The translations under genes were made by a program, and so were the position numbers. From Candidatus Gastranaerophilales bacterium (lineage in GTDB: Bacteria; Cyanobacteriota; Vampirovibrionia; Gastranaerophilales; Gastranaerophilaceae): DNA of 64,000 bases. Location of the stretch: contig CANQRH010000006.1 in NCBI GenBank assembly GCA_947626225.1, positions 1 through 64,000 on the forward strand, given 5' to 3'. Below the pieces are notes generated by a model that ran no database searches, was not told the DNA's origin, and worked only from the letters and a program-made list of their open reading frames with translations. Below, piece by piece: positions 23,372 to 62,132 of this stretch (the stretch's first letter is position 1; each line of letters starts with the position of its first letter).

Positions 23372-23719
23372 TTAATTTTTAGCTTTTTTGCCGAACCATC
23401 CTTGGACTCTTTCAATGAAGCTTTGTCCTGATTCACCGATTGTAAATCCAAAATCTTTAATTTTTGTCCAAGATTTTTTGAAGAATCCTTCGGGGATTTC
23501 CGTAGACTTAGCCAGTTTACCGTTTTTAACGGCATAGCCGAGCCCGATAAAACCGCCTAATGCAATAACGGCAAGAGCCAAAACTGTTTTAAGTCCCTTT
23601 TTGCCTGATTTCGGTTCTTCAACAGAGTAGTTAGGATGCGGTGCGATTGAGAATTTTCCCGGAGCACTTAAATCAATACCGGTATTCCCGAAATTTACAT
23701 TGGATACAGCACTAATCAT
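23372..23719 (-). CDS. Small membrane protein of unknown function
   Basis: A 115-residue protein with N-terminus SAVSNVNFGNTGIDLSAPG, a lysine cluster KSGKKGLKT, one membrane helix (VLALAVIALGGFIGLGYAV) and a charged tail of amphipathic helices ending GWFGKKAKN. A strong AGGAGG Shine-Dalgarno site precedes the ATG. Same overall plan as the 21324 protein, though the sequences align poorly. Function unknown. Confidence 0.7.
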   Translation of the reverse strand: MISAVSNVNFGNTGIDLSAPGKFSIAPHPNYSVEEPKSGKKGLKTVLALAVIALGGFIGLGYAVKNGKLAKSTEIPEGFFKKSWTKIKDFGFTIGESGQSFIERVQGWFGKKAKN

Positions 23720-23864
23720 AATTTACCTCCTGTCTGTATAAAACACCTGATATTCAAATTTTGTCATTAAAATATTTGCTTTTCAATAATTGTTACAAAA
23801 ATTTACAAAAAGCATGGAATAATTTTTCATTGAATGTCATCATATATAGTGAAAGGGAGAAATT

Positions 23865-26519
23865 ATGGTACGGGAAAATTTAATTACTATCGAAGAAAAT
23901 GACAGATTGGAAGCAGGAGCAGCCGTAAACAGCTTGAATAATGCACCGGTGCGGAACAGAGCTTATGTTAACAGTTTAGGCTCAGAACTCGCTCTTAAAT
24001 ATCTTGCATCTTTGAATATAGATGTAAGAGACCTTCCAAATATTCATTCAATAAAAAGAATACTCGGGGAATTTGATATCTCCGATATAATTCTGCCAAA
24101 TATTCATATAGATGTCAGGGTTGTTTATGATGAGAATGTTATCTTTATCCCTAAATCCCATTTTGAATACAATCTTGTACCTGATATTTATCTTGTTTTG
24201 AAACTGGCTGAAGATAATTCTTCTGCGGAATTTCTCGGCTTTTTTGAACCGAAATTGATAAACAAAAATAATGCAAATAAAAATTATTATTTTATAGAGA
24301 AAGAGAAATTATCCGCACCGTCAGATTTAAAAAATTATATTGAAAACAGTAAAAAAAATACCGGAGGAGCCATTTCTGATGACGAATTAAGCACATGCGA
24401 AAACTTGATTGTGTCAATTTCAGACGGCAGAATTCCCCGTAATGAAAAGAAATACCTTATTTCTCAACTGCTTAAAAGTCCCGATTTAAGAGAAAAATTT
24501 ATTGAATATGAAAATTTTGAATTACTTTCGCATAAAGCTATGGAAGATGGCAGTATAAATTTAAAAGAATATAACGAAGAAAACTCCGATGCGAAAAAGG
24601 CAACTTTTGCTGAAAACTTAATTGACAATCTTGCTCAGGATGAGTCTGTACAGATTGAAAATATGGATCATACGGAAGGTTTTGATGAACTTCCTCAAAT
24701 TGATATGTTGTCAGAAACAGCTTCTCTTGGTGCTGTTGAAGCTTCCGCCGAAATAATTGAGGATTCAGTTGCTGATGCGGAGCCGATTGCTGAAGCTTTA
24801 TCAGGTGAGAATTCCGAACTTTCCGAAGGGTTAACAGAAGAACCTGCAGAGCCATTAGACACTGTCTTGGAAGAACTTCCGGAGGCTGAAGGATTAAGCG
24901 AAGAATCTGTCGAGCCTTTAGACACCGTCTTGGAAGAACTCCCCGAGGCTGAAGGATTAGCCGAAGAACCTGCAGAGCCATTAGACACTGTCTTGGAAGA
25001 ACTCCCCGAGGCTGAAGGGTTAATGGAAGGATCAGTCGAACCTCTAGACACTGTCCTGGAAGAACTTCCCGAGGCAGAAGGGTTAACGGAAGGATCTGTT
25101 GAACCGTTAGATACTGTCTTGGAAGAACTCCCCGAAGCTGAAACAATAGCGGAAGAACCTGCAGAACCGTTAGACACCGTCTTGGAAGAACTTCCCGAAG
25201 CTGAAGGATTAAACGAAGAATCTGCAGAGCCATTAGATACCGTCTTGGAAGAACTTCCTGAAGCGGAAACATTAGCGGAAGAATCTGTCGAACCTTTAGA
25301 TACAGAACTTGAAGAACTCCCTGAAGCGGAAGCATTAGCGGAAGAACCTGCAGAACCGTTAGACACCGTCTTGGAAGAACTTCCCGAAGCAGAAGGATTA
25401 AGCGAAGAACCTGTCGAACCTATAGACACAGCCTTGGAAGAACTCCCTGAAGCGGAAACATTAACGGAAGAACATACGGAACCCATAGACACGGCAGAGG
25501 ATGAAGTTCCCGAAACAATTGAATCAGCAGCACAAGATAGTATACCTGAAACAGTTGATGAAAATCTGCCCGATTCAATTGATAATGTTTTGGATGAATT
25601 ATCAGACATAACGGAGACTTTACCTGAATCTGATATGCATGAAAATACAACTTCTCAAAGTTTTGAAGATTTTGATCTGGATACAATTGCCGAGCACAGC
25701 GTTGCGGATATTTCAACAGATGAAGCATCATTAAAAGCGGAAATTGAAGCAAAAATAGCCGGCGGAGATGTTAATGAATCCGGTATTGAAGGGTTTAAAG
25801 ATGATACCGAAACAAATGAACTGGGATTGCTTTATGATGATGAAAAATCATCCCCTGCGGATATTAATGAACTTCCGCAGGATGTAACTTTCCCCGGAGC
25901 TGCTTTTATCAGAAACTATAAAAGTGTTTTTGATAAAATTGATAAAAGAATAGTTGCGGTTACCGCCGCTGTATTGATACTGGCAGTCGGTGCAATAAGT
26001 GCGGTAAAACATAAACCGTCCGATATTGAACCTGCAGAACCGGTAAAAGATGCCGTAAATACTTCCGACAATGCTCTTGAAGCAAATATTCCTCAGGTGG
26101 ATAATAATACGGCGGAAGTTAAAAAAGTTGAAACCCGAGAACTGAAAAGTACTGCAAAACAAGTATCTTCAAATAGTTATATGTCAGTCAGCAAGATTGT
26201 TTGGGATGTTCCCGATACATTGTCTTACAGTTCAAAAATGCAAAATTTCCTGAGAATGGCAGGTAAGAGTATTAAATTATCTCTGTCTGCGGATTTGCTT
26301 CTCACAAGTGAATACGCTTATACAAATCAGGTTAAAATCGGGCTGAAATTAACTAAAGACGGTAATATTAACGAGGCGAAAATATTATCGGGAAGCGGAT
26401 CAAATGAAATAGATAATATTGTGTTACAATCTGTTAAAAGTACTCTGAATGTTTTAAAACCGCCTGCCAATGAGATAAACACCTCAACTTTTGATTTGAA
26501 TATTATCATTTATTTTTAA
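23865..26519 (+). CDS. Repeat-bearing membrane protein: DUF1822-like N-terminus, eleven acidic repeats, TM helix, TonB-C-like end
   Basis: An 884-residue protein. Residues about 35-150 form a folded domain (ALKYLASLNIDVRDL ... VVYDENVIFIPKSHFEY ... FLGFFEPK) that resembles the cyanobacterial DUF1822 domain. A charged linker leads to eleven 21-residue repeats of the type EPLDTVLEELPEAEGL (about 321-551), then an acidic low-complexity stretch. A single membrane helix (RIVAVTAAVLILAVGAISAV, about 702-721) precedes a linker and a C-terminal domain (about 775-884, KIGLKLTKDGNINEAKILSGSGSNEID) like TonB-C/TolA-type ends. Without an N-terminal signal the repeats should be cytoplasmic and the end periplasmic. 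GGGAG precedes the ATG. The sigma-factor gene follows after 32 bases. Confidence 0.8.
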   Translation: MVRENLITIEENDRLEAGAAVNSLNNAPVRNRAYVNSLGSELALKYLASLNIDVRDLPNIHSIKRILGEFDISDIILPNIHIDVRVVYDENVIFIPKSHFEYNLVPDIYLVLKLAEDNSSAEFLGFFEPKLINKNNANKNYYFIEKEKLSAPSDLKNYIENSKKNTGGAISDDELSTCENLIVSISDGRIPRNEKKYLISQLLKSPDLREKFIEYENFELLSHKAMEDGSINLKEYNEENSDAKKATFAENLIDNLAQDESVQIENMDHTEGFDELPQIDMLSETASLGAVEASAEIIEDSVADAEPIAEALSGENSELSEGLTEEPAEPLDTVLEELPEAEGLSEESVEPLDTVLEELPEAEGLAEEPAEPLDTVLEELPEAEGLMEGSVEPLDTVLEELPEAEGLTEGSVEPLDTVLEELPEAETIAEEPAEPLDTVLEELPEAEGLNEESAEPLDTVLEELPEAETLAEESVEPLDTELEELPEAEALAEEPAEPLDTVLEELPEAEGLSEEPVEPIDTALEELPEAETLTEEHTEPIDTAEDEVPETIESAAQDSIPETVDENLPDSIDNVLDELSDITETLPESDMHENTTSQSFEDFDLDTIAEHSVADISTDEASLKAEIEAKIAGGDVNESGIEGFKDDTETNELGLLYDDEKSSPADINELPQDVTFPGAAFIRNYKSVFDKIDKRIVAVTAAVLILAVGAISAVKHKPSDIEPAEPVKDAVNTSDNALEANIPQVDNNTAEVKKVETRELKSTAKQVSSNSYMSVSKIVWDVPDTLSYSSKMQNFLRMAGKSIKLSLSADLLLTSEYAYTNQVKIGLKLTKDGNINEAKILSGSGSNEIDNIVLQSVKSTLNVLKPPANEINTSTFDLNIIIYF
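24825..25517 (+). repeat. Eleven tandem 63-bp in-frame repeats
   Basis: Units begin every 63 bases from 24825 to 25455; ten are close copies and the last is degenerate. Each encodes 21 residues, mostly Glu, Pro, Leu, with the invariant core EPLDTVLEELPEA. Two unit flavours alternate irregularly (EEPAEPLD and EESVEPLD or EGSVEPLD), and blocks of near-identical DNA suggest recent duplication by unequal recombination or slippage. Copy number may vary between strains. Confidence 0.95.
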
Positions 26520-26522
26520 GCA

Positions 26523-26531
26523 TGTTATAAT
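26523..26531 (+). promoter_or_regulatory. Extended -10 promoter before the sigma-factor gene
   Basis: TGT-TATAAT at 26523-26531 lies in the 32-base gap after the repeat protein; a transcript would begin near 26538, 14 bases before the GTG start. The sigma-factor/ATPase pair can thus be transcribed separately. Confidence 0.5.
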
Positions 26532-26551
26532 ATTGACAGGAAATATAAGAA

Positions 26552-27109
26552 GTGGAATTAGCTCAAGACAAAATAGATTTAATAGAACGAATAATAAAGA
26601 ACGATCGAAAATATCTCAGTAATGAAGATTTATACGATGACTTTTTTAACGAAACATGCAAGCGCTCGCTGATGATTATACAAACAGTCAGTTCGGACGT
26701 TACTTTGGAAAGCTATCTTAAAAAAGTCGCTGCAACATCGATTCTAAATGTGCTGAAAAATGAAGGAAGACTCAGGAGAGCCGGAGGCGGTTATCAGGCT
26801 TCAAAAAATCTTTCGCTTGATGATGAAAACAGCTGGTCGAAAATCAATGTTGAATACAAAGCCGCTGATATTCCCGAAACGCCCGAAGATTTGGCGGTAA
26901 AAAAGAATATTTTGCAGTGTATTGTTGATTCTGTTTACGAAGTGAATGAACGTTTCCCCGAAAAGAATTACTTAAAACTTTATCATCTCAGGTATCGTAA
27001 AGGTTTGACACAGGCTGAGATTGCTTATGAAATGGATATTTCCCAGTCGGAAGTCAGTAAAAGATTGTTCAAACTTATGAATGAAGTGAAAAAAACATTT
27101 AATAATTAA
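26552..27109 (+). CDS. Sigma-70-family (ECF-like) RNA polymerase sigma factor
   Basis: A 185-residue protein. Residues about 25-85 correspond to region 2 (LYDDFFNETCKRSLMIIQTV ... LESYLKKVAATSILNVLKNE), and the C-terminus (about 135-180) is a clear region 4 helix-turn-helix: LRYRKGLTQAEIAYEMDISQ followed by SEVSKRLFKLM. The start is GTG 26552 behind AGGAAATATAAG. It lies between the repeat/TonB-C protein and the zinc-ribbon ATPase, ten bases before the latter. No anti-sigma gene of a known family is adjacent; the membrane protein upstream is a candidate to control it. Confidence 0.75.
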   Translation: MELAQDKIDLIERIIKNDRKYLSNEDLYDDFFNETCKRSLMIIQTVSSDVTLESYLKKVAATSILNVLKNEGRLRRAGGGYQASKNLSLDDENSWSKINVEYKAADIPETPEDLAVKKNILQCIVDSVYEVNERFPEKNYLKLYHLRYRKGLTQAEIAYEMDISQSEVSKRLFKLMNEVKKTFNN

Positions 27110-27119
27110 GGTTTTGCAC

Positions 27120-30053
27120 ATGATATGTCCCGTATGTAAAAAAAAAATTAATGAAAATACGGTAAAATGTCCGTATTGTAATGCACGTACGGGATTGCTA
27201 TGCCCCGAATGCCATACCGTAAATTCTCTTTCGGATTTGAAATGCAAAAAATGCGGAAAAGAACTATTAAAACGCTGTTTGAATTGCGGAAGTGTTAATT
27301 ATCCCAATGCCGACAAATGCCGCAAATGCGGTACGGCTTTTAAAATTTCCGCCGATGAATTTCTTTCATATAACCCGAACCTCGTTTCACAAAAAAGTGC
27401 AAAGAATATACTTGTAAAAGGTATTTTATCAGCCGATAAAAAAATATTTTCGTTAAGCGGAGAAAAAGGCAGCGGTAAAAGTGTTGTTTTAAAATCTGTT
27501 ATGCAGGAGTTGAAAGATTTTGCATGGATATACGGAAAATGTACTCCGGTCACACAACTTACGGCAGGCGGATTTATTCAGGATGTTTTGCTGAATATGT
27601 TCAGACTGCCTAACTTTTGTCTTAACAGCCTGCAATTTAAAAAAGACTGTTTTGAGTTTTTTAAAAATGAATTTCCCGAACTGTCCGTCAGCGAAATCAA
27701 TGAGCTTTTAAACTTTTTATACCCCGAAAAAGAAGGAATATTTGAAGATATTATTACCTGTAAAAGCAAAACTTATGAATTTTTAAATAAAATCTTTGAC
27801 AGATTCACCGCTGCTTCCAAATTTGTTATTGCAGTTGATAATTTCGATTTTATTGACGGATTTTCTTATGAATTTTTAAGTAAATATATTCAAAAATCCG
27901 ATGTGTTGAAAAATCTTAAATTTTTACTTGTGTATAGCGAGCACAAACCTGCACAGGGATATTTTTATTTACAGACCGATAACAATCAAAATATTTATCT
28001 GGATGTCGGTTTGGCCGATTTGGAATTCCGTCAGGTTTCCATGATTCTTGAGCAAAAGAAAAAACGATTTGATGATTATATCGTTCCGCCAAGAAATGTT
28101 GTATTTGAAATTTATAAAGCGGGAAGCGGAAATCCCGCATATATAAGTCATGCACTTGATTATTACTATGATTGTATCAAATGCGGCAAAGAATTTGAAC
28201 TCGCCGCAACATTTAAGGGCTTGCTTGAATTAAGGCTTGCACTGCTTGCTAAATATAACCCGCAGGCTTATAATGTTCTTTTATGTTCTTCAGTTATCGG
28301 GGACAAAATTAATACGAATTTAATCAGAGAAATTTTTGAGATTGATAATAAAACATTCAAAAGAATATTGATTTATTTGAAAAAGATGAATTTTATAATT
28401 CCCGTAAATGATATCTACTGTGAGTTCAGCTCGCTTCTTTTGTGGGAAACCATTGTAAGAACAACAAAGAATGATAAAAATTATAATGATATAAATGAAA
28501 AAGTATTTAACACCCTTATGGGATTTACTCTAAATTCCCGTTCGGTGCTTGCTATTATCGCACAAAATATAAAACAACCGAAGCTTGCACTTGATATCTG
28601 GTCAAGTATTACAAGACTTTGTACATATATAGGCGATGTGAATTTGTATGCGATTGCTCAAAAACAGTCGCTGGCTTTAATTAATGAGTTTGATGAAAAC
28701 GATACTCTGAAAATCCGTTATAATATATCCGAACGTTTGGGAAAACTTCTTGCAAATTCAAATCCCGCGGAAGCTATGACATATCTTCCGGATGCCGTAT
28801 CAAATGCAAAGGCAATCGGCGATAGTGCCAAAGAGATTGAGCTGCTTGCATACCTTGCATCTTGCTGCAGAGCAACCGGAAAGTATTTCGGTGAGGTTGA
28901 ATGTGTTGATTCCGTGCTCGAGAAGATAAATCCGGATGATGAATTAAATATTGCTCTTTTAAAAACGACAAAATTAAACGCTTTATTGAGTATCGGCAAT
29001 TGCGGGCAGGTCATAAACATGATTGATAATGAAATTATGCCCGTTCTTGACAAGTATTTCAGCCGAAGACAAAGTTCGAAAGATTCAAGGGTTAATCTCG
29101 TTTATGAAACTTGGGTTAAAACTTATCTGGTGCTTGCAAACGCTCTTATCCTGCAGGGTAACGACAGAGCGTTTGAAATATTAACAATACTTTTCGACAT
29201 TATCGAACGAAATCAAATTCAGAATGAACTCTTTGTATGCGATTGCAAACTATCTCTTGCTTTTGCAAACACAATGAAAGGTAATTTTACCTCATCAGAG
29301 CAAATGCTTGAAGATATTCTGAAAACTTATACTAACCTGGATAATGTTGCAGTAATAAGGTGGAACTTTATAAATATTATTAACTGTTTTATGCAGAAAC
29401 GTTATTACGGTATTCAGCAGGATTTGTTTAAAGTCGTAACGTTTGCAAACAATGCCGGAGATAATTTCACAAAAAATATTTTGAAAACCCTTTTGGGAAA
29501 AGTATTTAAAGATAATGACAATTCCAAACAGGCAATGGAAATATATCGGGATCAGATAGCATATTTTGCCAAAGAAAAAATGGCACTGGGTGCTCTTTTA
29601 ACCTGGTATTTGATTGCGGATGCCGCGTTGATAACGGAAGGCCCGCAAAATGCAATGGAGATTGCACAGCAGGCTCTTGAAGTCGCGCAAAATCCGAAAA
29701 TTGATAACTATATTTTTACAATTCTTTTAAAAACGGTTATAGCAAAATGTGCAATGACAACCTCCGATTATGAAACAGCTAAAATAAATCTTGAAAGTGC
29801 AATCATTCTTGCAAGGAAATTTAATTTGAAAGATTTACTCTCAAGACTTTATATCCTTTACGGCAAATACTTTCAGGAAATCGGACTTATCAAATCGGAA
29901 AAACAAAAAGAATACCTTATGGGGGCTCAGGAGCTGTATGCCCATGCTCAAGAAATTATTGAACAGACCAAAAACCGTTATTTGTACGGCGAATTGAAAA
30001 AAGCCAAAGATGTTTTGAAATCTTTTTGCAAACTGAACAATATCAGTTTATAA
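27120..30053 (+). CDS. Zinc-ribbon / STAND-type ATPase with TPR-like C-terminus
   Basis: A 977-residue protein. Three zinc ribbons occupy the first 72 residues (CPVC...CPYC, CPEC...CKKC, CLNC...CRKC). An AAA/STAND NTPase follows with Walker A GEKGSGKS (about 114-121) and Walker B FVIAVDNFD (about 235-243). From about 430 to the end the chain is helical with TPR-like patterns (AMEIAQQALEVAQNP, AKINLESAIILARKF). This is the plan of signal-transducing NTPases of the MalT/adenylate-cyclase-associated kind. ATG 27120 has AAGG eight bases upstream; TTG 27114 is also in frame. Paralogous in plan to the protein at 58584-62105, but with an intact P-loop and no cyclase-like domain. Confidence 0.8.
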   Translation: MICPVCKKKINENTVKCPYCNARTGLLCPECHTVNSLSDLKCKKCGKELLKRCLNCGSVNYPNADKCRKCGTAFKISADEFLSYNPNLVSQKSAKNILVKGILSADKKIFSLSGEKGSGKSVVLKSVMQELKDFAWIYGKCTPVTQLTAGGFIQDVLLNMFRLPNFCLNSLQFKKDCFEFFKNEFPELSVSEINELLNFLYPEKEGIFEDIITCKSKTYEFLNKIFDRFTAASKFVIAVDNFDFIDGFSYEFLSKYIQKSDVLKNLKFLLVYSEHKPAQGYFYLQTDNNQNIYLDVGLADLEFRQVSMILEQKKKRFDDYIVPPRNVVFEIYKAGSGNPAYISHALDYYYDCIKCGKEFELAATFKGLLELRLALLAKYNPQAYNVLLCSSVIGDKINTNLIREIFEIDNKTFKRILIYLKKMNFIIPVNDIYCEFSSLLLWETIVRTTKNDKNYNDINEKVFNTLMGFTLNSRSVLAIIAQNIKQPKLALDIWSSITRLCTYIGDVNLYAIAQKQSLALINEFDENDTLKIRYNISERLGKLLANSNPAEAMTYLPDAVSNAKAIGDSAKEIELLAYLASCCRATGKYFGEVECVDSVLEKINPDDELNIALLKTTKLNALLSIGNCGQVINMIDNEIMPVLDKYFSRRQSSKDSRVNLVYETWVKTYLVLANALILQGNDRAFEILTILFDIIERNQIQNELFVCDCKLSLAFANTMKGNFTSSEQMLEDILKTYTNLDNVAVIRWNFINIINCFMQKRYYGIQQDLFKVVTFANNAGDNFTKNILKTLLGKVFKDNDNSKQAMEIYRDQIAYFAKEKMALGALLTWYLIADAALITEGPQNAMEIAQQALEVAQNPKIDNYIFTILLKTVIAKCAMTTSDYETAKINLESAIILARKFNLKDLLSRLYILYGKYFQEIGLIKSEKQKEYLMGAQELYAHAQEIIEQTKNRYLYGELKKAKDVLKSFCKLNNISL

Positions 30054-57141: not shown

Positions 57142-58584
57142 TTATTTGCTAAGTGATGTATATAAATCCAGGTAAACTTTTGAACTCTTTTCCCAAGAGA
57201 AATCAGCTTCCATTGCACTTTTTCTCATCGCATTGAATGTATATTTATCTTTGTACACGTCCGTTGAGCATTTTACAGCCTGCATCATGCTCCAAGAATC
57301 GTATCCCCAGAATTTAAATCCGGTTGAATCAGACAGAGGATAACCGACAACCGTATCTTCAAGTCCGCCGGTTGCTCTGACAACAGGCAGCGAACCGTAT
57401 CTCATAGCAATTAACTGACTCAACCCGCAAGGCTCAAATGCAGAAGGCATCAGATAAAAATCGCTTCCCGCATAAATAAGATTTGCAAGTTTTGCATCAT
57501 ATCCCACAAAAGCTCGAATGTTTGACGAATTGTTGGAAAGCCATATCAGAAGATTTTCATAATCCTTGTCACCGCTTCCCAAAAATACAAAATCAGCATT
57601 TAATCCTTTGAGTTCGTTTTCCGCACCTCTTATCAAATCAATTCCCTTTTGTGGTACCAGTCGTGAAACCATTGCGTATAACGGCCTTTCGGGATTATAT
57701 TCAAGCGAAAATTTTTCACACAGTTTTTTCTTATTTTCTTCTTTATTTTTCAAAGTTTTTATATCATAGTTTTTTACTATATTTTTATCTGTTTTTGGAT
57801 TAAACACATCGTAATCTATTCCGTTTAAAATTCCGATAACTTTGTGCTGATTCATTCTCAGTGTATAATCCATTCCTTCACCGTATTCACCTGTTAAAAT
57901 TTCTTGTGAGTATTTGGGAGATACGGCAATAACTTTGTCGGAATAATTTATGGCGCCTTTCATCCAGTTAACTTTTCCGTAATGTTCAACACCCCATTCG
58001 TTGTATACTATATCCTTGCGCATATTTGCAAAGTCAAGTACATCTTCAAACCAGACTCCCTGATATGCAAGATTATGTATTTCAAAAACATTCTTGGTAT
58101 TTTTCCAAAACTCATCATATCTGTAATTACTGTGAAGATATACCGGAATCATTGCCGTATGCCAATCATTTGAATGAATTACATCCGCTCTGAAATTTAA
58201 AAGTTTTGCATACTCAAGTGTTGCAAGCGAAAATGCTATATATCTTTCATGTTCATATCTTGTATCCAGCCATTTGGGATAAACTTCCTTAAAACAAGTG
58301 AAATACCAATCATTATGTACAAAAAATACGTTTATATTTGTATCGGGGAGTTTGCACATAAATAATCTGAATTTGTGCCCCACACCTCCGAATGTAAGCC
58401 ACATTTCAGAATTTTCAAGCTCTTTTATTCCGTATTTATTCGCATCAATCAAACCGTGAAACGGCGTAAAAATAGCAACTTCAGCATCTTTTTCAATATA
58501 TTTGGGCAAGCTTCCCGCAACATCTGCAAGTCCTCCCGCTTTGGAAAAAGGTGCAACTTCGGCTGATGCAAATAAAACTTTCAT
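57142..58584 (-). CDS. glgA: Glycogen synthase (ADP-glucose, GT5)
   Basis: GlgA elongates alpha-1,4-glucan from ADP-glucose. The 480-residue GT5 enzyme starts with FASAEVAPFSKAGGLADVAG, which contains the KAGGL nucleotide-sugar motif, and has HNLAYQGVW, VSRLVPQKGIDLI and the C-terminal PSAFEPCGLSQLIAMRYGS with the retaining-GT catalytic glutamate, then TGGLEDTV. The ATG shares one base with the stop of the upstream zinc-ribbon/STAND-like gene and its GAGGAT lies inside that gene, so the two are translationally coupled. Other glg genes are not in the window. Confidence 0.96.
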   Translation of the reverse strand: MKVLFASAEVAPFSKAGGLADVAGSLPKYIEKDAEVAIFTPFHGLIDANKYGIKELENSEMWLTFGGVGHKFRLFMCKLPDTNINVFFVHNDWYFTCFKEVYPKWLDTRYEHERYIAFSLATLEYAKLLNFRADVIHSNDWHTAMIPVYLHSNYRYDEFWKNTKNVFEIHNLAYQGVWFEDVLDFANMRKDIVYNEWGVEHYGKVNWMKGAINYSDKVIAVSPKYSQEILTGEYGEGMDYTLRMNQHKVIGILNGIDYDVFNPKTDKNIVKNYDIKTLKNKEENKKKLCEKFSLEYNPERPLYAMVSRLVPQKGIDLIRGAENELKGLNADFVFLGSGDKDYENLLIWLSNNSSNIRAFVGYDAKLANLIYAGSDFYLMPSAFEPCGLSQLIAMRYGSLPVVRATGGLEDTVVGYPLSDSTGFKFWGYDSWSMMQAVKCSTDVYKDKYTFNAMRKSAMEADFSWEKSSKVYLDLYTSLSK

Positions 58585-61500
58585 TATTTATCCTCACTTT
58601 CTTGTAAATCTTCAGGTTGAGCTTCCTCACTGTCGGAAGTGTTTTCCGGCTGAGTTATTTCTTCTTCCGTTAAGGAATCTTCTTCAACGGGAATGTAGTG
58701 TGAAGGATCTTCATCAAAGTTGAAATTTACACCGTATTTTTGTGCAAGATATTTTGCCTGATTTATGCATATCTGTGCACTTTCAAACTGCTGTTTAAAC
58801 ATCATTGCTTTGTACATGCTGTATTTAAATAACATTAAAAGATATTCGCTTGTTGTGTTATTTTTCTCAAGCTGAACAAGAGTATTGTTAAATATTCCGT
58901 ATGCAACATCATATTTATCCAGCTTCAGATGAAGTTCTCCCATCAAAAGCCAAGTACAGTATAATACTGAAATCATTCCGTTTTGATTTGTTTCCTGAAT
59001 TATGTTATAGAAAATGCTTTCCGCTTTCTTGTAGGATCCCGCCTTCATATATGCATATCCGATTAGCAAATCGGAGAATAATTCAAGTTGATGAATACCG
59101 GATTCTTTTGCGCATATTTTGGCTTTGTAAGCATATTCGGCAAAAGTGTTGCTGTCGCCGTTTGAAAGTGTAAATGCAGAAATGATATTGCAGATAATGG
59201 CGGCAAACCTGTCGTTCTGCTCAATTTCAATGCCTTCGAGAGATACGGGAATCCCCTTCATAAAGTCCTGTAAAAGCCCGAAAACAGCAAATGATTTAGG
59301 TATAAAACTTACAACACTGTTCAGTATATTCAAAAATTCTCTAATATCTCCGCTCAAAAGCATAACACCGGACAGTGCAATATAACCCGCGGAATCAATA
59401 ATGAGCTGTGCAAAACTTTCGTCGCTGTAATACTCAGGTTTTATTTTCGGTATTGTTTCGTTATTAATAACATTCAATACTTTGTAACCCACATCCACGC
59501 AGTCAACAAGCGTTCCGATATTGTATAAAATTTGAATATGCGCAACAGACATTAAGAAGAAATAAGTGTTAAAATTCGGACTGTCAGGATTTAATGATGA
59601 CGGCGGAAGCAAAGCAAGCACTTTATGTGTAAGTTCTAATGCATGGTTGTATTCTCCTGCCAATAAAGCTCCGTTAATCATCTTGTTGCATAATTCAATA
59701 ATTTTATCCGCATCACCGGTTTTTTCAATATTTTTAAGAGTTGTTTCGGCAACCTTGATTGATTTTTCTGGAATGTAATCATAGAGGTTATTTGCAATGT
59801 TATCATAAATTTCCGCTTTGTATGCCTTGTATGTTTCTTCGGTTTCTTCGGTTACCGTGCGGTCTAAAATTTCAATTATCTTATCACAGCAGTTTACAAA
59901 AGCCCGGAAATCTCCGAGAGATTGGTTGATTTGTGCCAGCTGTTCCCACTGGATACGTTCATTTTCACTGTCATTAAGAAGCCCGTATAAATAAGCTTTC
60001 AGAGGGCTTGGCATTGTTTCATCAAATACTTTGTCGAAAAGATTTTTTGCCGTATCTTCAAGTGAAATTTTACTTACGGTAGTTAAAAGATTTCTTCTTA
60101 AAAGGTTGTAATTCGGGAAATAGATGCAATTGTTGTACTCATACAAATATCCCATTTCCGCAAGTTTATCAAGATTTTCTTTAGTATTTTCAAATCCCAG
60201 ACTGTCTATAGTGCCTTTATCAATTCTGGTTCCGAGAAGAACGATAGATGTCAAGAGTTTCATTACTTCGACATCGTCCTGCAGCAGATTAAGTCTTCTT
60301 GCAATGAGCTTGTCAAGGCTTGATGGAATTATAATAGTTTTAGGATTAACCATTTCCACACTGTCATCGTCAGCTGAATATACACCGGATTCTATAAGAT
60401 ATTGAAGCGCAAAGTCTATAAACAAACTGCTTCCGCAGGCATATTTTGCAACTCTGTGGAAATAGAAATCATTAAGTACATTTCGATAATAAACTTTATT
60501 TTCTTCAATAATTTTCTCAAATGAAGCCGGTTTAAGCGTTATTTCAGTGTAATTGTCATACAGCATTAAGAAGTGGCAGTCTTTATGCAGTGAAAAATCT
60601 TTACTGTAATTCATCAAAATGCTGATATCAAGCTGTTCAAATTCTTGGAACAAGAATTTCATTACATCGTAAGAACTTTCATCAATCTTATCAAAGTCCT
60701 CAATAAAAATAAGTGTTTTGGGGATAACCTGAAGCAATGTAAGAAATATGTCAAAGTAAACCGATCTCTTATCCGCAATATCATCCGCCGGCCGTTTGTT
60801 CAAGGTAATCAAATCTTTAATCAATCCGTCGGGATCAACTGATTTGAACATTGTAAAATCATTCTGAGAAAACAGTTTCTGAGAAACCGTGTATTCAAAT
60901 ATTGCCGATACCAAATCTCTGAAGAAAGAATACGGGGTATATTTCATTTCATCATAGCAGGTAATCGTAATAATGTTGTTAAACTTTCCTGTTTCGGCAG
61001 CGGTGTTTAAAACTTTGATTGAATAAGGTTTATACATTTCGGGTGTTTTCAATGCAATAATGCCTTTCGGACAGGATTGAAGTTTATTCATTATATGGTA
61101 AAGGCAATCTATATTTTCCGTTCTGATAAAGTCGCATTTTATTTCTTCAAAGTTTATGGATTCAATATCGTAAATAGCATCTTTATCTTTTTTATTGGAG
61201 TTCAATCTGTTTAAAGCTTCACCGTCAAGCTTGTCCTGTTCAATAAGCATATTTTGAACAAAATTCGGAACTTCTATTTCGTCGGTTTCTTCCTGCGGAT
61301 ATTCTACGGTTACATATTCTCTCAAATCGACTTCATAGAACATCAGCATTTCATCATTTACCATAACAGAGTTTAACGGTGAAATCTTGTAATCACCGTC
61401 AATGGCATCAGACACATTGTCATCCGTCAAAACCTGGAAAGTATTCAGTATTTTATCTTCTTTCTTTTTGGTGCTTTGTGCTAAAAGGCTGATATTATAA

Positions 61501-62105
61501 CCTGATTCTACGTTATTGGGATCATCATCAATACTTCTTTTCAGAAGAAACATATTACATCTTATTGTCGCATTTTTCTTACCGGAAAGTTTGCAGTTCA
61601 TGGCGGTTATAAGATTTAAAAGTTCAATTGCGGCTTTCACGGCGGTTTGTGCCGAACTGTTGAAGGTATAATCTTTATTGCATCTTATAACATAAGTTTT
61701 ACCGATAATCTGACGTCTCAGCCCTATGGATTTTGTATAATCACGTATAATTTTATCAAGATTGATTTTAAACTTATTGTATAGCTTTGCCGAATCCAAA
61801 AGGTTTTTCATATCTTCCATGTTAGGAAAATCAATTGTAATTATTACAAATTCATCGGCATTGGATTCATTCATAATAATACTTTTTTCGGTATCAAAAC
61901 CGCATTTTTTACATTTCTTGGCGGCGGTCTGATTGATTTTCCCGCATTCGTGGCATTTTGAGATAATGGCATATCCGCATTTTTTACAATAATTGCTGTC
62001 GTTAATCGTCTTACAAATCGGGCATACCAATTTAAGCACCTTTTTGCAGTTAGGGCAAACCATTGCATTATCATCAATTTGTAATCCGCATTTAGGACAT
62101 TCCAT
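58584..62105 (-). CDS. Zinc-ribbon / degenerate cyclase / degenerate STAND ATPase with TPR-like C-terminus
   Basis: A 1173-residue protein. Three zinc ribbons (CPKC...CPNC, CPIC...CKKC, CHEC...CKKC) fill residues 1-70. Residues about 84-268 look like a class III nucleotide cyclase domain (FVIITIDFPN, AVKAAIELLNLI, MLMFYEVDLREYV) in which the second metal motif GD is GK, so it should be inactive. The NTPase part has a good Walker B (TLIFIEDFDKID, about 464-475) but the Walker A position reads ALKTPEMYKPYS, without the glycines. From about 640 the chain is helical and TPR-like; the tail is acidic. ATG 62105 follows GAGG; GTG 62108 is possible. It is the coupled upstream partner of glgA and shares its plan with the 27120 protein. 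Confidence 0.78.
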   Translation of the reverse strand: MECPKCGLQIDDNAMVCPNCKKVLKLVCPICKTINDSNYCKKCGYAIISKCHECGKINQTAAKKCKKCGFDTEKSIIMNESNADEFVIITIDFPNMEDMKNLLDSAKLYNKFKINLDKIIRDYTKSIGLRRQIIGKTYVIRCNKDYTFNSSAQTAVKAAIELLNLITAMNCKLSGKKNATIRCNMFLLKRSIDDDPNNVESGYNISLLAQSTKKKEDKILNTFQVLTDDNVSDAIDGDYKISPLNSVMVNDEMLMFYEVDLREYVTVEYPQEETDEIEVPNFVQNMLIEQDKLDGEALNRLNSNKKDKDAIYDIESINFEEIKCDFIRTENIDCLYHIMNKLQSCPKGIIALKTPEMYKPYSIKVLNTAAETGKFNNIITITCYDEMKYTPYSFFRDLVSAIFEYTVSQKLFSQNDFTMFKSVDPDGLIKDLITLNKRPADDIADKRSVYFDIFLTLLQVIPKTLIFIEDFDKIDESSYDVMKFLFQEFEQLDISILMNYSKDFSLHKDCHFLMLYDNYTEITLKPASFEKIIEENKVYYRNVLNDFYFHRVAKYACGSSLFIDFALQYLIESGVYSADDDSVEMVNPKTIIIPSSLDKLIARRLNLLQDDVEVMKLLTSIVLLGTRIDKGTIDSLGFENTKENLDKLAEMGYLYEYNNCIYFPNYNLLRRNLLTTVSKISLEDTAKNLFDKVFDETMPSPLKAYLYGLLNDSENERIQWEQLAQINQSLGDFRAFVNCCDKIIEILDRTVTEETEETYKAYKAEIYDNIANNLYDYIPEKSIKVAETTLKNIEKTGDADKIIELCNKMINGALLAGEYNHALELTHKVLALLPPSSLNPDSPNFNTYFFLMSVAHIQILYNIGTLVDCVDVGYKVLNVINNETIPKIKPEYYSDESFAQLIIDSAGYIALSGVMLLSGDIREFLNILNSVVSFIPKSFAVFGLLQDFMKGIPVSLEGIEIEQNDRFAAIICNIISAFTLSNGDSNTFAEYAYKAKICAKESGIHQLELFSDLLIGYAYMKAGSYKKAESIFYNIIQETNQNGMISVLYCTWLLMGELHLKLDKYDVAYGIFNNTLVQLEKNNTTSEYLLMLFKYSMYKAMMFKQQFESAQICINQAKYLAQKYGVNFNFDEDPSHYIPVEEDSLTEEEITQPENTSDSEEAQPEDLQESEDK

Positions 62106-62132
62106 CACATTACCTCAGTTTAAAGTATATGC

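Follow-up and report, generated by a model that had tools for sequence, protein, structure and literature searches.

The window analysed here, a stretch of 64,000 nucleotides from a Gastranaerophilales genome of 1.59 Mb (G000, contig C6), carries three adjacent plus-strand genes, designated A, B and C, all of which lie where a previous sequence-only reading of this DNA had placed them. That reading had passed over the anti-sigma domain of A, the promoter ahead of it and a conserved divergent gene upstream, which are included in the following list of features (positions in the window).

23372-23719, minus strand: small protein with one helix, beginning MISAVSNVNFGN and encoded divergently from A; conserved neighbour and candidate member of the system
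23816-23842, plus strand: ECF-like promoter element GGAATAATTTTTCATTGAATGTCATCA, conserved before A in most genera
23865-26519, plus strand: gene A, 884 aa; DUF1822 domain, predicted class I anti-sigma domain, acidic linker, membrane helix and TonB-C-like end
23865-24353, plus strand: DUF1822 domain, predicted PD-(D/E)XK-like fold with incomplete active site (A residues 1-163)
24372-24548, plus strand: predicted class I anti-sigma domain without zinc ligands (A residues 170-228)
24819-25514, plus strand: eleven 21-residue acidic repeats, species-specific (A residues 319-550)
25950-26009, plus strand: single membrane helix by hydropathy (A residues 696-715; hydrophobic segment 696-714)
26319-26501, plus strand: TonB-C-like domain, presumed periplasmic (A residues 819-879)
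26552-27109, plus strand: gene B, 185 aa, GTG start; predicted ECF-type sigma factor
27114-30053, plus strand: gene C, 979 aa, TTG start as listed; predicted triple zinc-ribbon STAND ATPase with TPR-like helices
27126-27329, plus strand: zinc ribbons with twelve invariant cysteines (C residues 5-72)
27387-28733, plus strand: NB-ARC/STAND core with Walker A (C residues 92-540)
28791-30050, plus strand: TPR-like sensor helices (C residues 560-979)

The true start of gene C is probably the ATG at 27120 rather than the listed TTG at 27114, since the alignment of most orthologs begins at residue 3. A profile of C was used to fetch 80 named Gastranaerophilales loci from a second collection, 78 of which were informative. 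All 78 loci with enough contig showed the order A-B-C on a single strand, with gaps of 0-51 bp between A and B and of -20 to +20 bp between B and C, which makes the three genes a tight operon. The divergent gene with a matching N-terminus (MISSVSNVNFRGD) was found in 57 of 71 named loci. Separation of the three genes in relatives, which the sequence-only reading had set against its own proposal, was thus not seen in the window's clade; conservation of the neighbourhood gives way in several deeper genera (g3, g8, g21, g26, g36, g37 and g39) and in one sister-family genome (G344), where A, B and C are partly or wholly dispersed.

A survey of 146 family genomes from 41 genera detected the N-terminus of A and gene B in 134 each and C in 144; the operon is real and near-universal in this family. 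The distance between B and C is at most 1.5 kb in 104 of 129 genomes, and including two genomes whose sigma gene has a long insert raises this to 106. The tally leaves out G056, and some of the non-adjacent cases are contig ends. Twelve genomes lack A and twelve lack B, with seven lacking both (hypergeometric 2e-6, a value that ignores kinship and includes two incomplete genomes among the seven), and genus g34 retains C where A and B are missing. The tendency of A and B to vanish together, with C staying behind in g34, indicates that A and B form the pair and that C is a looser partner. Such a distribution could also be read as that of a merely conserved cluster, in which C functions separately and shares a transcript with A and B without any functional link, given that C is more widespread than the other two, that it is found without them in g34 and in other parts of the class, and that the genes are dispersed in several genera. 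Set against this are the constant order in every informative named locus and the near-zero spacing of B and C in most genomes (about 106 of 129). Because operon conservation over such a range usually marks a shared process, a common process of A, B and C is favoured, and a cluster without functional connection appears unlikely.

By its profile matches, B is an ECF-type sigma factor (NCBIfam sigma70-ECF, 51.3 bits against a cut-off of 42.9; Pfam Sigma70_r4, 26.4 against 24.1). In the sigma factor of genus g24 (L052:3997-5820), sigma2 and sigma4 are separated by about 400 acidic inserted residues. ECF promoters have the layout GGAAT, about 16 bp, GTC, and a pattern of the form GGAATA-T-tract-N7-TGTCATC (TGGAATATTTTTTT-N7-TGTCATCTTAT) lies about 50 bp upstream of A in most genera. 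With one mismatch allowed, this pattern occurred at exactly one site per genome in all eight genomes searched, always ahead of A. The conservation of an ECF-like promoter at this position, together with its single strict occurrence per genome, makes it likely that the operon is autoregulated by B, the predicted user of the promoter. The pattern is absent before the dispersed genes and in g24, g29 and g40, where B has diverged. In the sister family it is kept, slightly altered, before a solo A, and the flank of the sister-family B (L273) holds no such promoter. Neither a second strong site nor any site recurring before a common gene was found; a wider regulon, searched for with a looser pattern, was not supported, as the counts were only modestly above those of a reversed-pattern control and no site recurred at a common gene. 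In most close genera a conserved block, TTGTTACAAAAATTTACA (23790-23807 in the window), lies immediately upstream of the promoter and is possibly a binding site for another regulator.

The sequence-only reading had proposed that A acts in place of a classical anti-sigma factor. This does not hold, as A has, by homology and predicted fold, a class I anti-sigma domain of its own, zinc-less in this lineage, directly after the DUF1822 domain. Of 23 genomes sampled, 12 have orthologs with the zinc motif Hx3Cx2C at this position, and two of these orthologs (L056 and L061) exceed the Pfam cut-off for zf-HC2, whereas the ligands are gone in the window's clade (segment SQLLKSPDLREKFIEYENFE versus the zinc-bearing form HLIDCPMCREKLNETIEFE), which places that clade outside the zinc-binding (ZAS) subclass. 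Zinc-less and zinc-bearing domains are homologous by profile alignment (hhalign 97.6%, E 3e-12). A profile of 24 sequences (A1) searched against the PDB gave the anti-SigW factor RsiW as the top match (E 9.9e-6), exactly over the anti-sigma domain, followed more weakly by DdvA and RslA. Profiles built only from zinc-less sequences (A5 and A8) matched no anti-sigma protein in the PDB, so that for the window's own A the case rests on its orthologs and on structure. The AF2 model of the domain (pLDDT 90) consists of helices at residues 172-186, 192-204 and 206-227, and it superposes on MucA with Z 7.6 (2.3 A over 54 residues) and on RsiW with Z 7.4. A single split in a tree of C (support 99/100) divides the zinc-bearing from the zinc-less forms of A, so that one change suffices within the family; the sister-family A is zinc-less too, and a gain or a loss of zinc would both be compatible with this pattern. 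The zinc motif occurs in about half of class I anti-sigma domains (ASDIs) and is not required, and a mixture of domains with and without zinc is usual within class I (PMC7406223).

Taken on homology and predicted fold, A is therefore better described as a class I anti-sigma factor that carries additional domains, and it very likely regulates B from the membrane. The location of B beside A in all 78 named loci is what would be expected for an ASDI protein and its ECF sigma factor. Residual distances after removing C, which are a weak test, correlated at 0.59 between DUF1822 and sigma2, 0.34 between the anti-sigma domain and sigma2, and 0.10 between the anti-sigma domain and the zinc ribbons; they favour coupling of A with B and hint that A could bind and inhibit B.

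The N-terminal domain had been likened to DUF1822, and the profile search bore this out: PF08852 matched A with E 2.3e-7 in a search of the window's whole genome (E for one genome), and A orthologs exceed the Pfam cut-off, although a plain Pfam scan of the window's A does not list the domain. Residues 1-163 have a high-confidence predicted structure, and the structure matches over them are nearly all PD-(D/E)XK-type nucleases and their kin (SPARDA, Z 8.2; Hjc, Z 8.1; also RecU, EcoRV and HincII). Matches to phage proteins reach E values down to 7.7e-6, and two of these proteins bear a restriction-endonuclease annotation. These scores are moderate, with Z near 8 and a best Foldseek E against the PDB of only 0.2, and the catalytic D...(D/E)xK is not kept, the candidate stretch reading IPK and both K97 and D83 varying across genera. 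Considering the type of the matches, their moderate scores and the missing catalytic residues, the DUF1822 domain is probably a nuclease-derived and likely inactive binding domain.

Between this cytoplasmic head and the membrane, the linker of A (residues 230-690) is strongly acidic, with 33% D/E and 2% K/R. Eleven repeat anchors spaced exactly 21 residues apart lie at residues 331-541, and their number agrees with that given previously. The suggestion that the array acts as a ruler was not supported, and a conserved ruler was ruled out, since the repeat is private to the window's species, being absent in relatives except for a single copy of the core motif in L210, and since the linker varies about twofold in length among relatives, in which the membrane helix begins anywhere from residue 616 to 1138 and the whole protein measures 804 to 1373 aa. 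The other domains previously proposed, namely DUF1822, one membrane helix, an ECF sigma factor and zinc ribbons with STAND and TPR-like parts, were recovered; the TonB-C-like end was near the cut-off and stronger in orthologs, as the TonB_2/TonB_C match at residues 819-879 falls slightly under the cut-offs in the window and several orthologs exceed that of TonB_2.

The fusion of DUF1822, anti-sigma domain, membrane helix and TonB-C was observed solely in this family and its sister family. In g17 and g25, two separate genes stand in for the single A, one for DUF1822 and the anti-sigma domain and one for the membrane helix and TonB-C, and an A homolog of g40 has 394 aa and no TonB-C match; the inhibitor thus need not be covalently joined to the envelope domain. 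A TonB-dependent receptor plug domain is present in the window's genome and missing from all five relatives tested, so that the TonB-C-like end is unlikely to depend generally on TonB-dependent receptors. The single helix and the TonB-C-like end raise the question of whether A might instead transduce the energy of an ExbB/ExbD motor in the manner of TonB/TolA, in which case the sigma factor would only set its supply and the anti-sigma-like domain would be a functionless relic. MotA/ExbB family proteins occur in all six genomes tested and the zinc ligands are missing from A in the window's clade, as this would allow, but the lack of plug domains in the relatives is at odds with it, and so are the retained anti-sigma fold and the long cytoplasmic head of DUF1822 and anti-sigma domain, which is highly conserved, with invariant residues in the anti-sigma domain, and is encoded beside a sigma gene. 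We consider this explanation very unlikely and retain the reading of A as an anti-sigma factor.

Gene C, in turn, is a STAND switch by its predicted fold. The Pfam scan gave DZR zinc ribbons, AAA_16 (below cut-off) and TPR-like helices, and neither the twelve cysteines nor the Walker A glycine-lysine varies between genera. The predicted model (pLDDT 87.8) matches a solved STAND-TPR protein with E 3e-10, the core of MalT with Z 18.4 and Apaf-1 with Z 17.7; the fold also resembles Avs3, and the repeats are structurally similar to MalT domain III and to the Rap/NprR sensors. No CHAT or caspase match and no effector domain were found in C. A cyclase domain in C was considered and rejected, as the insert of a longer C (1223 aa, L054) is low-complexity or coiled with no recognised domain, and a defence system was likewise discarded, with no PADLOC match to either C or A. 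In other families of the class, C-like proteins (L181, L182, L184 and L185) may contain a degenerate class III cyclase domain between ribbons and ATPase, for which there are weak PDB matches (E 0.04-0.2) and no Pfam call. The window itself holds a paralog of C, a zinc-ribbon/AAA/TPR protein of 1174 aa at 58584-62108 on the minus strand, adjoining a starch/glycogen synthase gene at 57142-58584, and second C-like copies occur in many relatives too.

The resemblance of C to Apaf-1, MalT and Avs3 also suggests a different division of labour, in which C is the true output, a STAND sensor or effector of immune or stress type, dosed by a sigma/anti-sigma pair whose sole strong target is its own operon. 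The single strict promoter per genome ahead of A and the retention of C in g34 would fit this arrangement, as would the cyanobacterial sigma/DUF1822 genes that adjoin CHAT or protease genes (PMC8195603). It is harder to reconcile with the failure to find an effector domain or a PADLOC match in C, with the separation of C from A and B in several genera, and with a near-universal occurrence in the family, whereas defence systems are patchy. This possibility therefore seems rather improbable, and the preferred reading remains that of a sigma/anti-sigma pair produced together with a STAND ATPase.

Several known systems share parts of this plan. A resembles RsiW-SigW, MucA-AlgU, RskA/RslA and ChrR in its predicted anti-sigma fold, and orthologs of A share their Hx3Cx2C; one membrane helix, an adjoining ECF gene and, for the operon here, likely autoregulation are further points in common with such class I anti-sigma/ECF pairs. 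Unlike them, A adds an N-terminal DUF1822/PD-(D/E)XK-like domain, an acidic linker of several hundred residues and a TonB-C-like outer domain, and here the anti-sigma gene stands first in an operon that includes a third, STAND gene. FecA-FecR-FecI and the PUMA3 system VreA-VreR-VreI use a single-pass anti-sigma regulator with a periplasmic interaction domain, as is proposed for A. In PUMA3 the TolA/TonB-C-like domain sits in VreA (PMC2729926), whereas the TonB-C-like domain here is within the anti-sigma protein itself and no receptor is linked; FecR and STN domains gave no match in A or its orthologs, and the operon contains no receptor gene.

The pairing of sigma and DUF1822 genes reaches well beyond the Gastranaerophilales lineage. 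In cyanobacteria, DUF1822 genes (L121-L140) occur in 1-11 copies per genome, often immediately after a sigma-like gene, and an association of ECF sigma and DUF1822 genes beside EACC2-caspase genes is mentioned in a single sentence of PMC8195603. The cyanobacterial pairs likewise combine a DUF1822 protein with a sigma-like gene, but their order, sigma then DUF1822, is opposite to that of A and B; a CHAT-CHASE2 or trypsin-like gene may follow. The cyanobacterial proteins are for the most part soluble; none of the 20 DUF1822 proteins inspected has Hx3Cx2C, and 19 of them, unlike A, are without a membrane-helix-like segment. The EACC2/CHAT modules are linked to caspase or CHAT genes, whereas the third gene in the mapped loci here is the zinc-ribbon STAND ATPase. 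C in turn shares an NB-ARC core, a TPR sensor and an intact Walker A with MalT, Apaf-1 and the STAND-TPR protein 6mfv, but has three N-terminal zinc ribbons instead of a DNA-binding or CARD domain and is co-encoded with a sigma/anti-sigma pair. The zinc-ribbon/AAA/TPR proteins of other families of the class have an AAA-TPR part homologous to C, in some cases with zinc ribbons, and a cyclase-like middle domain (a weak link) that is missing from the window's C.

Computed gene order and spacing, the homology and fold of the anti-sigma domain, the conservation and rarity of the promoter, and the fold and intact motifs of C together make it likely that A is the cognate anti-sigma factor of the ECF sigma factor B and that the operon is a self-amplifying envelope-signalling unit. 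On this basis we propose the following course for A-B binding and inhibition, topology, signal, release and the role of C. The class I anti-sigma domain of A would keep B inactive, with the DUF1822 domain probably contributing to the inhibitory interface. The membrane helix and the long flexible acidic linker would join this cytoplasmic head to the TonB-C/TolA-like domain beyond the inner membrane, and B could be freed by a signal or a partner acting on that domain or from within the cytoplasm, after which it would bind core RNA polymerase and fire the GGAATA.../TGTCATC promoter before A, producing more A, B and C. Co-produced C would most likely be an ATP-driven, ligand-gated STAND switch (MalT/Apaf-like) acting on the A-B complex or serving as the output. 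The periplasm-to-nucleoid signalling envisaged by the sequence-only reading is partly borne out, in so far as the operon is conserved and A very likely regulates B from the membrane, but not in the form of DUF1822 replacing an anti-sigma factor. As a more speculative and rather doubtful extension, the PD-(D/E)XK-like head of the anti-sigma factor might read a cytoplasmic nucleic-acid or nucleotide signal and the TonB-C-like end the envelope, with the co-made STAND ATPase integrating both and remodelling the sigma/anti-sigma complex; if true, this would be a dual-input transmembrane sigma switch of a previously undescribed kind.

In agreement with the earlier statement that no system with this set had been described, no description was found in the open-access literature on DUF1822, on sigma/anti-sigma factors of Gastranaerophilales/Melainabacteria and on TonB C-terminal domains with anti-sigma factors, and the literature searched contains nothing on sigma/anti-sigma control in Gastranaerophilales. 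Since its sigma factor, anti-sigma factor and promoter are all clear, the system could be tested by reconstitution in E. coli. Gastranaerophilales are gut bacteria with cyanobacterial relatives, known mostly from metagenome genomes, and the most plausible interpretation of their locus is an ECF sigma/anti-sigma system under its own control, in which the anti-sigma factor has an unusual set of several domains and a STAND ATPase is encoded alongside. This places a STAND ATPase in one operon with an ECF sigma/anti-sigma pair, and DUF1822, a domain of unassigned function that is common in cyanobacteria, gains a likely fold and a testable role in sigma control.
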